64,000 nucleotides of DNA. It comes from Glutamicibacter sp. JC586 (lineage in GTDB: Bacteria; Actinomycetota; Actinomycetes; Actinomycetales; Micrococcaceae). Location of the stretch: the NCBI RefSeq assembly GCF_009805585.1, contig NZ_VHIN01000002.1, forward strand, positions 1 through 64,000. The letters run 5' to 3'. Under the pieces are notes generated by a model. The model ran no database searches, had not been told where the DNA came from, and worked only from the letters and a program-made list of their open reading frames with translations. Each line of letters starts with the position of its first letter. Within the stretch, counting starts at the first letter, position 1. The translations under genes and the position numbers were made by a program. Positions 60,660 to 64,000 of the stretch are shown piece after piece.

Positions 60660-62675
60660 CTAGTTGTTGTTGTCGCGGCTCTTGATGGCTTCGACAATGC
60701 GGGCTACAGCATCATCGATTGGCACCTGATTTTCCTGGCTGCCATCACGGAAGCGGAAGGACACAGCATTGGCATCTGCATCTTCGCCACCGGCGATGAG
60801 TACAAATGGAATCTTGTCCTTGGACGCATTACGGATCTTCTTCGGGAAGCGATCGGTGGAGTCATCCAGCTCAACACGAACACCCTGAGCTTTGAGCTTC
60901 GCGACTACCTCTGAAAGGTAATCGTTGAAAGCTTCTGCCACTGGGATAGCGCGAACCTGTACTGGCGAAAGCCATGCCGGGAAAGCACCCGCATAGTGCT
61001 CGGTCAGTACGCCGAGGAAGCGTTCGATGGAACCAAACTTTGCAGCGTGGATCATGACCGGTTCCTGACGGCTTCCGTCGGCTGCTTGGTATTCCAAACC
61101 GAAGCGTGCAGGCTGGTTGAAGTCATACTGCACAGTACCCATCTGCCAGGTACGACCGATAGCGTCCTTGGCCTGAACCGAGATCTTCGGGCCGTAGAAC
61201 GCAGCTCCACCTGGATCGGCAACCAGCTCAACACCTGACTCGGTAGCGACGCGTTCCAGTACGGCAGTTGCTTCTTCCCACTGCTCGTCGGAGCCGATGA
61301 ACTTATCCGACTCCGGGTCGCGGGTGGACAGCTCTAGGTAGAAGTCATCCAGTCCGAAGTCCTTGAGCAAGGAAAGCATGAAGTTCAGCAGGTGATCAAC
61401 TTCGGCAGGTGCCTGTTCCTTGGTGACGTAGGAGTGCGAGTCGTCTTGAGCGAAACCACGTACGCGGGTCAGTCCGTGAACCACACCGGACTTCTCATAG
61501 CGGTACACGTGACCGAATTCGAATAGTCGCAGTGGCAATTCGCGGTAGCTACGTCCACGGCCACGGAAGATCAGGTTGTGCATTGGGCAGTTCATTGCCT
61601 TCAGCCGGTATTCCTGACCCTGCTTGGTGATGTTGCCATCTTCATCGCGCTCTTCATCGATGTGCAGCGCTGGGAACATGGTGTCCGCGTAGTACGGCAG
61701 GTGGCCAGAGGTGTGGAACAGCCCATCCTTGGAGATGTGTGGGGTTCCCACATACTGGAAGCCTTCTTCTACGTGGCGATCACGTACGTAGTCTTCCATC
61801 TCGCGCTTGATGATGCCGCCCTTAGGGTGGAACACCGGCAGGCCCGAGCCCAGCTCATCCGGGAAGGAGAACAGGTCTAGTTCGGCGCCGAGCTTGCGGT
61901 GATCGCGACGCTCAGCTTCAGCCAGACGCTCCTGGTAGGCCTTGAGGTCTTCCTTGGTTGGCCATGCGGTGCCATAGATACGCTGCAGCTGCTTATTCTT
62001 TTCACTACCCAACCAGTAGGCGGCGGCCGAACGAGTCAGCGCAAAAGCGTTCTTGATCAGCTTGGTGTTGGGCAGGTGCGGGCCGCGGCAAAGATCCTTC
62101 CACACGATGTCGCCGGACTTGCGGTCAACATTGTCGTAGATGGTGGTTTCGCCGGCAGCAACCTCAACGGTGACGCCTTCTCCGGAAGTGTCAGCGGAGT
62201 CAGCCTTGGCCAGAAGTTCGCACTTGTATGGCTCGTTGGCCATTTCTGCCTTGGCTTCTTCTGGCGAAACTTCGCGGCGCGCAAAGAGCTGGTTCTGGTT
62301 GACGATCTTGAGCATCATCTTTTCCAGCTGCTTGAGATCTTCTGGGGTAAATGGTTCAGCCACATCGAAGTCGAAGTAGAAACCGTCGGTGATGTATGGA
62401 CCGATTCCCAGCTTGGCATCCGGGCGAAGCTGCTGCACAGCCTGGGCCATCACGTGGGCGGTCGAGTGACGCAGCACCTCCAATCCTTCTGGATCGGTGA
62501 TGGTTACGCGGGTGACAGAGGTGCCGGCTTCTAGTTCGCGGGAGAGGTCACGCAATACGCCGTCGACGTGCATAACAACCACGTCTTTGTCCTTGGCAAA
62601 ATACTGCAGACCGGTTGTTCCCGCGTCCACCTGTACCTGCTCGCCGTCAATGGTGAGGGTCAGCTGCTCGCTCAT
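60660..62675 (-). CDS. thrS: Threonyl-tRNA synthetase
   Basis: 671 residues: TGS domain (about 1-65), editing domain with [11 protein letters not shown], class II core with zinc Cys in [13 protein letters not shown] and [17 protein letters not shown], and motif 3 [13 protein letters not shown], then the anticodon domain. First gene of a thrS-HIT unit. Confidence 0.97.
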
Positions 62676-62783
62676 GAGATCGGGTTCTACCTTTCAATCT
62701 GGGATGGCTTCATAGCTTGTGGCATACCTTGGCCACAGCCAGCCAGAATCCAGTTTAGTTCAGGACCTCACCGACGTGCGCGC

Positions 62784-63431
62784 TCACTTCGAGTTTTGCG
62801 ATGATTGTTCACCCATATGTGATTCGTTCAACAGAGAATCAGCGTTATACAGGGTCATGACGTGCCAGATCTCGCGTTCCTGCGCGGACTGAGAGCTTTT
62901 AACCTTGCCGTTTTTTAGATCCTCGCGGAATGCTGGAATCACTTTTTCCATACGCCTGATGAGCTCTTGGCATTCGTCATGAGTGAGCATCAGATTGCTC
63001 GTTTGCATCTGTGCTTTCACAACCCCCGATTCTTCTCCGCGATAGTGCTTTTCGGCATGCTGCAACGCGGCCTGCAGGCGACGTTGCTCATCGTGAACAA
63101 CCTGGCCTAGGTAGGCGTTCATGGCCGTTCCAGTCAGATCTTCCGGGCGCTCCCCTACCTCTCCGGTGGTGTAGCCTCGGGCCGCAGGCTTCCAGACCCG
63201 ATCGCGTTTGTCACGAGCCAACTCCGGAACTTCAACAATCATGTTGGCCTTAGCCAGCTCGCGCAAATGGAAGCTGACTTTATTTGCGGGCACTCCAAGA
63301 GTCTGCGCAAGATCGGCGGCACGGGCATTTTCCATCGCTGAGAGCGTGTCAAGAATTTGCCTTCGAAGCGGGTTCGCAATGGCCTTGAGCATGGGAGTGG
63401 TGAATGTGACCGGTGGCTCAGGAGTGCTCAT
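62784..63431 (-). CDS. ArsR-like winged-helix regulator
   Basis: 215 residues. Winged helix over about residues 10-75: MLKAIANPLRRQILDTLSA, then AADLAQTLGVPANKVSFHLR and VPELARDKRDRVWKP. The C-terminal part is helical and charged, possibly effector-binding or dimerising. It faces an MFS transporter gene divergently across three TTGCGCAA boxes, so repression of the transporter is the natural model. ATG 63431 lacks a ribosome site and lies just after a TATGCT-like -10, hinting at a leaderless mRNA. Confidence 0.88.
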   Translation of the reverse strand: MSTPEPPVTFTTPMLKAIANPLRRQILDTLSAMENARAADLAQTLGVPANKVSFHLRELAKANMIVEVPELARDKRDRVWKPAARGYTTGEVGERPEDLTGTAMNAYLGQVVHDEQRRLQAALQHAEKHYRGEESGVVKAQMQTSNLMLTHDECQELIRRMEKVIPAFREDLKNGKVKSSQSAQEREIWHVMTLYNADSLLNESHMGEQSSQNSK

Positions 63432-63453
63432 GTCCACAGCATAGCAATCCACC

Positions 63454-63511
63454 AAATAAAGTTGCGCAAATTTGATTGCGCAACTTTATTTGCGCATCTA
63501 TAGTTGTTGAC
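63454..63511. promoter_or_regulatory. Divergent promoter/operator with three TTGCGCAA boxes
   Basis: TTGCGCAA at 63462-63469 and 63476-63483 and TTGCGCAT at 63490-63497 are spaced by exactly 14 bp. The first two lie inside a perfect 16-bp inverted repeat (63454-63469 with 63476-63491). Plus-strand -35 TTGCGC (63476-63481) and -10 TATAGT (63499-63504) have a 17-nt spacer. Transcription would start at or next to the ATG at 63512. Confidence 0.65.
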
Positions 63512-64000
63512 ATGGACTCGCCCCAAAGCACCAAGAACGTCGCCGCAGATGTTACTTCGCAGGCTTTGCTGCCTCCGTTGCATAAGCAGCGGAACTACCG
63601 CATGTGGCTTGCCGCAGATACCTCAGCCTTACTATCGGGGAGTATCTACGGATTCGTTTTCCCGTTGATTCTGCTGGCTACGACCAGCTCCCCTGCTTTA
63701 GCGGGGATACTCGCTGCAATAGGGATGATTGCTCGGGCCAGTTTGATTCTTGCTGGCGGGTCCAAAGCAGACCGCTCCAACAAGGCGAGGATGATGCTCA
63801 TGGGCGGTATCTGCGGGGCAATCATCACCGCGGCCATGGCGCTAGGTAGCCTTACGGGCTCCATACCAATCGCACTTCTGTGCATTGCGCACGTCTTGAT
63901 GGAATTACGTGGTGGATACTTCGGCTCGATCACCAATGCTGCTTTGAAGGATCTTGTTCATCCCAAACAATTGGGTCGAGCCATGGCCGCTAACCAAGGG
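63512..64000 (+). CDS. MFS transporter (3' end beyond window)
   Basis: 163 codons, open to the window edge. After a polar N-terminus (about 1-30), transmembrane stretches appear: SALLSGSIYGFVFPLILLAT, then AGILAAIGMIARASLILAGG, the A-motif-like GGSKADRSNKARMM, GGICGAIITAAMALG, and IPIALLCIAHVLMELRGG. This is the N-terminal half of a major facilitator; drug efflux is a common role but the substrate is not shown. No ribosome site precedes the ATG. Confidence 0.85.
   Translation, partial: MDSPQSTKNVAADVTSQALLPPLHKQRNYRMWLAADTSALLSGSIYGFVFPLILLATTSSPALAGILAAIGMIARASLILAGGSKADRSNKARMMLMGGICGAIITAAMALGSLTGSIPIALLCIAHVLMELRGGYFGSITNAALKDLVHPKQLGRAMAANQG

Follow-up and report, generated by a model that had tools for sequence, protein, structure and literature searches.

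A 14-bp box array as the very probable operator of an ArsR-like regulator in a divergent MFS transporter promoter

Introduction

In the double-dimer operators of the DtxR/IdeR type, several repressor dimers are bound on close or overlapping sites and on different faces of the DNA helix. The array described here resembles these operators in that multiple dimers would lie close together, but the protein family and the pitch are different.

SmtB, AzuR, and ZiaR are ArsR-family repressors with 12-2-12 operators, and one site of this kind, listed in Table 2 of the paper describing them, reads TGAA-N6-TTCA (PMC8790569). Its spacing is the same as that of GCAA-N6-TTGC, the candidate dimer site at the present locus. 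The likeness extends to the divergent arrangement of ZiaR and to the overlap of 12-2-12 operators with the promoter, as these are presented in that paper (PMC8790569). However, the letters of the half-sites differ, and the paper's account of the operators gives one or two repeats per promoter, in contrast to the three abutting sites at a fixed 14-bp pitch that are proposed here (PMC8790569). Rv2034 is an ArsR-like auto-repressor of M. tuberculosis with a footprint that extends from -30 to +3, and a section heading of the report states that its binding is not inhibited by zinc and four other metals (PMC3338718). Its palindrome, CCGnAA...TTnCGG, is like the outer half-site CCGCAA that is common among relatives of the present locus. 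The Rv2034 operator, CCGTAAGT-N4-ACTTACGG, corresponds to GTAA-N8-TTAC, which is 2 bp wider than the unit proposed here and counts against GCAA-N6-TTGC, and unlike the present locus no 14-bp array is described in the report's treatment of this operator (PMC3338718).

In this work, we discuss a window of 64,000 nucleotides (the whole stretch of DNA that was analyzed) in which the gene of an ArsR-like regulator and that of an MFS transporter diverge from a region that carries three 8-bp boxes. The openly licensed literature was searched through titles and the beginnings of abstracts, and the regulator group, the box, the related word TTTGCAAAG, and a 14-bp ArsR array were not recognized in it. 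As far as these searches go, the parts of the locus are of known kinds, and the fixed 14-bp three-site array as the rule of a family is new within that literature. What had appeared to be an oddity of a single promoter becomes a predictable operator rule for a family, which helps sequence-based searches for the genes that these regulators control.

The ArsR-like regulator

The regulator is encoded by the following reading frame.

62784-63431, minus strand: ORF of the ArsR-like regulator, 215 aa, with an N-terminal winged helix and a helical C-terminal half

The protein scores above the thresholds for PF12840 (HTH_20; 36.8 bits, cut-off 27) and PF01022 (HTH_5; 24.5 bits, cut-off 22), but with 43.8 bits it does not reach the 55 bits required by HTH_metalloreg (NF033788), the metalloregulator model of NCBI. 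Cysteine is absent from the invariant and nearly invariant columns of 15 aligned regulator sequences, a result that leaves room for other metal ligands. By sequence, the closest PDB entry is an ArsR protein (6j05, E 2.3e-5). In the predicted fold (mean pLDDT 72.8) the winged helix is confident and the C-terminal part is weak. The solved structures that match this model at E <= 0.001 are just CzrA (4ggg) and CadC (3f72), and many ArsR and MarR folds follow below them. With its winged helix-turn-helix, the protein belongs to the ArsR/SmtB-type winged-helix regulators. The named close relatives are Glutamicibacter and Arthrobacter strains, and the window itself probably belongs to Glutamicibacter.

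Kfla_6221 (4g6q) and PH1932 (2cwe and 1uly) resemble the regulator in having a winged helix-turn-helix with a longer C-terminal part. Among the best 50 structures listed, 4g6q, 2cwe, and 1uly cover most of the model (182, 209, and 203 columns), with low TM-scores on the query (0.40, 0.37, and 0.32) and a model of moderate confidence. The PDB title of 4g6q gives that protein as functionally unknown. The regulator differs from SmtB, AzuR, and ZiaR, as they are described together with their operators (PMC8790569), in its length of 215 aa, its helical C-terminal half, the lack of a conserved cysteine, and its MFS neighbor.

The box array in the window

A preliminary description of this DNA had placed three boxes at a period of 14 bp upstream of the MFS gene. 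The positions and the period were confirmed, with TTGCGCAA present exactly at two places and a third box, TTGCGCAT, that matches it at 7 of 8 bases. The two exact boxes also lie in an inverted repeat as had been claimed; the arms were found to be 17 bp long, not 16 bp.

63453-63492: inverted repeat with arms of 17 bp each (63453-63469 and 63476-63492) and a 6-bp center
63462-63469: central full box, TTGCGCAA
63476-63483: central full box, TTGCGCAA, within which TTGCGC resembles a -35 element of the MFS gene
63490-63497: third box, TTGCGCAT, in the spacer between the MFS -35 and -10 elements
63448-63455: fourth box register, on the regulator side, TCCACCAA (minus strand TTGGTGGA), a half-box

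Lone TTGCGCAA boxes are mildly enriched in the window (5 compared to 1.82 expected), and 3 of 100 shuffles reach this number. In 20,000 dinucleotide shuffles of the surrounding 201 bp (63380-63580), an exact palindromic 8-mer repeated at a lag of 14 never arose; when the whole window was shuffled, it arose in 1 of 20 trials. The rarity resides in the pairing of the boxes and not in the single boxes. A chance origin of the pair was rejected on the basis of the local shuffles.

In the genome to which the window belongs, the box pair with zero or one mismatch is found at this one locus, and the idea that the genome contains a whole regulon of similar arrays was rejected on that ground. When up to three mismatches are allowed, 28 sites are obtained compared to 14 for the reversed pattern, so the weak matches are largely noise. 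Four sites have two mismatches, and two of these lie inside open frames of more than 150 codons. No terminator was found in 63380-63560, and no Rfam RNA matched in 62600-63600.

Conservation of the array

The regulator is present in 15 of 18 genomes of the genus, and a box pair with at most one mismatch lies beside it in the same 15. The other three genomes (G002, G010, and G013) hold just a C-terminal remnant of the regulator of 30-51 aligned residues (L110, L111, and L112). An MFS match and the box pair were not found in the 6-kb stretches around these remnants, and the box pair was found nowhere in the three genomes. By counting arrangements, such perfect agreement has a chance of 1 in 816, a figure that shared descent makes too strict. 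Close relatives in which the gene pair persists without the boxes were sought, and none was found.

Homologues were collected from 58 relatives, from 295 family genomes (36 at E <= 1e-15), and from 396 order genomes (52 at E <= 1e-12), and 20 further loci came from a scan of named genomes. From the resulting 123 regulator loci, 13 were removed (3 copies of the window locus, 6 second copies within the genus, and 4 remnants) as were 2 with identical upstream regions, leaving 108. Some of these upstream regions are still close kin, and the counts ignore descent except in a reduced set of 52 operators that is described below. An 8-mer that recurs at lag 14, with a single mismatch allowed, is present upstream of 96 of the 108 homologues, compared to 10.0 in shuffles (sd 3.0). 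The count falls to 49 of the 108 for a lag of 28 and to 25 for a lag of 42; lags of 9 and 24 also pass the mark but are much weaker (27 and 22 of 108).

The controls were 30 MarR genes of the order and the 30 best generic HTH_20 genes of the phylum, with the interval 59 nt off at one control locus (L175). In a common interval from -300 to 0 relative to the match, the repeat is found for 96/108 homologues, 2/30 MarR genes, and 3/30 generic HTH_20 genes, and the corresponding counts for the interval from -260 to -40 are 83/108, 1/30, and 3/30. As the 14-bp array is common upstream of the homologues and rare in the controls, it is a property of the regulator group and not an oddity of the window. 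The preliminary description had considered a three-box operator to be unusual for an ArsR-like protein, a view that does not hold within this group, where 14-bp arrays are the rule. The rule is not valid for every homologue, since a second, distant homologue in the same genome as the window (G000:C3:107348) and five relatives have no 14-bp repeat; within the 108 upstream regions it is absent from 12.

The exact pair is present in 25 of 290 family genomes, and all 25 have the regulator. Ten regulator-positive family genomes are without an exact pair (one of them, G017, has a pair with a mismatch), and G315 is not among the matches listed. When the search was made from the operator, with an extended pattern and up to two mismatches, 15 of 394 class genomes were matched, and the reversed pattern gave none among the matches listed. 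Five of the 15 loci had already been found through the protein. At each of the 10 new loci a regulator homologue lies beside the array, with the MFS gene divergent in 4 and downstream in the direction of the regulator in 6.

In six large genomes (L207-L212), which are probably Streptomyces, the array stands ahead of a regulator-MFS tandem pair and not between divergent genes. Four of these loci have reading frames nearby that we take to be HisF-like.

Box words and regulator subfamilies

Regulators with the helix xN.xS[FY]HLR (N-type) have the 14-bp repeat at 72 of 77 loci, and the other types have it at 24 of 31. In the N-type group TTGCGCAA ranks first, outright or in a tie, at 74 of the 77 loci, and no word reaches the threshold at the remaining 3. 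The 17 regulators of the SSGxTSYHLR type have TTTGCAAA as the best word in 14 cases and none in 3. In two smaller GSxS types (12 regulators) the preferred words are TTGTACAA, TTGTGCAA, TTGCACAA, or TTCTACAA, with TTGCGCAA scoring equally well in three cases, and of the last 2 regulators among the 108 one has TTGCGCAA and one has none. In these comparisons the box word follows the regulator subfamily. A specificity code of one residue was considered and rejected, because six loci with SLVSYHLR helices, in large genomes of group g128, also use TTGCGCAA; this group is probably Streptomyces.

By tblastn, 68 of the 77 N-type loci have a divergent gene whose product is related to the N-type MFS proteins, compared to 0 of the 31 others. 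Because the queries were MFS proteins from N-type loci, the zero means that there is no relative of these proteins at the other loci, not that there is no transporter.

The binding unit

Of the 77 N-type operators, 72 were aligned; L060, L069, L102, L106, and L131 are too weak to align, and in 6 of the 72 the register is ambiguous and the first register was kept. A full box is defined as a match of at least 7 of 8 bases, and the reduced set of 52 takes a single operator from each group below 75% identity. Read from the MFS gene toward the regulator, the registers have full boxes in 10, 71, 70, and 11 of the 72 operators, values that correspond in the window to the third box, the central boxes at 63476-63483 and 63462-63469, and the regulator-side register; the next registers outward have 1 and 0.

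In most relatives just the inner half of the third box is left. For the outer box on the MFS side, the inner three bases match better than the outer three in 63 operators, worse in 3, and equally in 6, and for the outer box on the regulator side these numbers are 52, 6, and 14. The reduced set gives 43, 3, and 6 on the MFS side and 35, 6, and 11 on the regulator side. The preliminary description had treated the TTGCGCAA box as the unit. Outer boxes of which, as a rule, just the inner half is retained point instead to GCAA-N6-TTGC, which spans from one box to the next, as the putative unit: an array of such sites fits half-boxes at both ends, whereas an array of TTGCGCAA sites would not leave them. 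This edge rule is a tendency, since full outer boxes do occur on both sides (10/72 and 11/72), and on the MFS side the outer half adjoins the -10 element, so that the needs of the promoter could also explain its loss. The sites proposed for the window are as follows.

63452-63465: proposed dimer site A (CCAA-N6-TTGC), on the regulator side, in which the outer half is imperfect
63466-63479: proposed dimer site B (GCAA-N6-TTGC), at the center of the dyad
63480-63493: proposed dimer site C (GCAA-N6-TTGC), on the MFS side

The linkers that flank the central pair of boxes (63456-63461 and 63484-63489 in the window) tend to be reverse-complementary to each other. They match at 5-6 of 6 positions in 17 of 72 operators, compared to 2.4 when partners are shuffled, and in 8 of 52 operators of the reduced set, compared to 1.0. 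In L074 there are 23 consecutive matched positions per arm, and L208 carries a palindrome of 52 bp, the 23-bp arms of which are exact. This complementarity indicates that in some species the whole operator behaves as one long palindrome, which could result from selection for symmetry or from templated repair of near-palindromes.

Other readings of the array have to be weighed against these data. It is unlikely that each 8-bp palindrome TTGCGCAA is itself a dimer site, with three dimers on the three boxes. The perfect palindromy of the boxes, the third box of the window with 7 of its 8 bases, and the three near-full boxes in a row in some relatives (e.g., L018, L081, and L084) agree with this reading, but it does not predict flanking boxes that are mostly reduced to their inner halves, and the half-sites of the 12-2-12 sites listed for SmtB-like proteins are 6 bp apart and not abutting (PMC8790569). 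A reading in which one dimer, bound to the central GCAA-N6-TTGC or to the entire dyad, does the work and the outer half-sites only modulate it is slightly less likely again. In its favor, the central pair of boxes hardly varies in comparison to the flanks, and the whole operator can form one long dyad, as in L074; against it, the inner halves of the outer boxes are also strongly kept, as CGCA on the MFS side (60/72) and as TTG or GTG on the regulator side (54/72).

It is highly improbable that some other transcription factor, encoded elsewhere, recognizes the boxes and that they lie beside the regulator by coincidence. An exact triple array that lies away from the regulator in one family genome (G130:C22) would agree with such a factor. 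Against it, operator and regulator co-occur in 15 and are jointly absent from 3 of the 18 genus genomes, and 10 of 10 new operator-first matches adjoin a regulator homologue. We regard it as very probable that the array serves as operator for the adjoining ArsR-like regulator, which is divergent from the MFS gene, and three abutting GCAA-N6-TTGC sites are the preferred reading of its structure.

The MFS gene and the divergent promoters

The features of the MFS gene and of the two promoters are as follows.

63512-64000, plus strand: MFS transporter gene, with its start at 63512, continuing past the window; 445 aa in full
63499-63504, plus strand: MFS -10 element, TATAGT, 7 nt before the ATG at 63512
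63443-63438, minus strand: regulator -10 element, TATGCT, with TGC ahead of it, 6 nt before the ATG at 63431

The MFS protein, represented by the full protein from locus L031, passes PF07690 (109.4 bits, cut-off 33.4). It is related to drug-exporter models but is well short of their cut-offs (TIGR00900, 106.5 compared to 319.6; Tet(V), 51.1 compared to 640; Mef(A), 40.6 compared to 675).

The promoter elements are located where the preliminary description had put them. The middle box supplies the -35-like TTGCGC (63476-63481) with a 17-nt spacer to the -10 element, the third box lies in this spacer, and the two -10 elements are close to their start codons at the distances listed above. TTGCGC matches TTGACA at 3 of 6 positions, and a strict sigma-70 scan found no promoter. 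The box array overlaps the MFS promoter by sequence, and the overlap is conserved among relatives. Among the 72 aligned operators the distance on the MFS side is fixed, and between the second central box and the start of the regulator gene it ranges from 22 to 86 nt.

In C. glutamicum the -10 motif is TAnnnT, which was located ahead of about 97% of the mapped starts, and 33% of the mRNAs lack a leader (PMC3890552). Leaderless starts are therefore ordinary in such bacteria. At the present locus, inspection of the sequence found no purine-rich ribosome site upstream of the MFS ATG, as had been claimed, and the comparison supports a leaderless spacing for both genes. On the regulator side, where any in-frame ATG or GTG beyond the operator was accepted, TAnnnT stands 6 nt (63 loci) or 7 nt (6 loci) before a start at 69 of 72 loci; other gaps between 3 and 12 nt yielded one case, the second start of a locus that had already been counted. 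On the MFS side, a TAnnnT hexamer occupies one fixed place in 58 of 72 aligned operators, and an ATG follows that place by 6 or 7 nt in 52 of 72. The exceptions are an ATG at 2-3 nt in 6 of 72 and none within 30 nt in 14 of 72. Both genes have a predicted -10 element of the form TAnnnT that is placed for initiation at the start codon. Leaderless starts of both genes are well supported by this spacing, and the regulator and MFS genes are probably among the leaderless ones.

Proposed mechanism of regulation

We infer that a dimer of the regulator binds GCAA-N6-TTGC and that three such sites lie end to end at a 14-bp pitch from 63452 to 63493, so that each TTGCGCAA box would consist of two abutting half-sites that belong to neighboring dimers. 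As 14 bp is about 1.33 turns at 10.5 bp per turn, neighboring dimers would be placed about 120 degrees apart around the helix. The bound dimers would cover the MFS -35 element and much of the spacer between -35 and -10, and they would reach near the regulator -10 element; in this position they are proposed to shut off both genes. A small molecule, perhaps one that is handled by the exporter, would free the regulator from the DNA. Transcription would then begin at or within about a base of each start codon and give leaderless mRNAs. Taken as a whole (three abutting dimer sites, repression of both genes, release by a ligand, and leaderless mRNAs), this model appears likely from the comparative evidence. 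It proposes both a dimer site and a stoichiometry, and conserved paired promoters that are apparently leaderless would allow repression and leaderless initiation to be studied together.

A broader proposal is possible but more doubtful. A large clade of ArsR-like regulators in actinobacteria may act as a cooperative trimer of dimers on six half-sites at a 14-bp pitch, with the dimers about 120 degrees apart and sheathing the DNA helically, and the operator may evolve as a palindrome of about 50 bp in register with a leaderless exporter promoter.

Additional observations

In G002, the flank of the regulator remnant (L028) matches the flank of the window that carries the presumed thrS gene. The region from about 62676 to 62760, upstream of thrS, had no Rfam match; it appears nearly invariant across the 11 genus loci in which it is seen, L009 being somewhat changed, and is possibly a leader or promoter region. 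G130 is one of the 25 family genomes with the exact pair, and it has an additional array of three exact TTGCGCAA boxes at a 14-bp pitch that is away from the regulator (G130:C22, 1699-1734; L234). This array may be a second target or a coincidence. It lies in an ORF that may be interrupted and whose end, we assume, resembles the S1 domain of polynucleotide phosphorylase.
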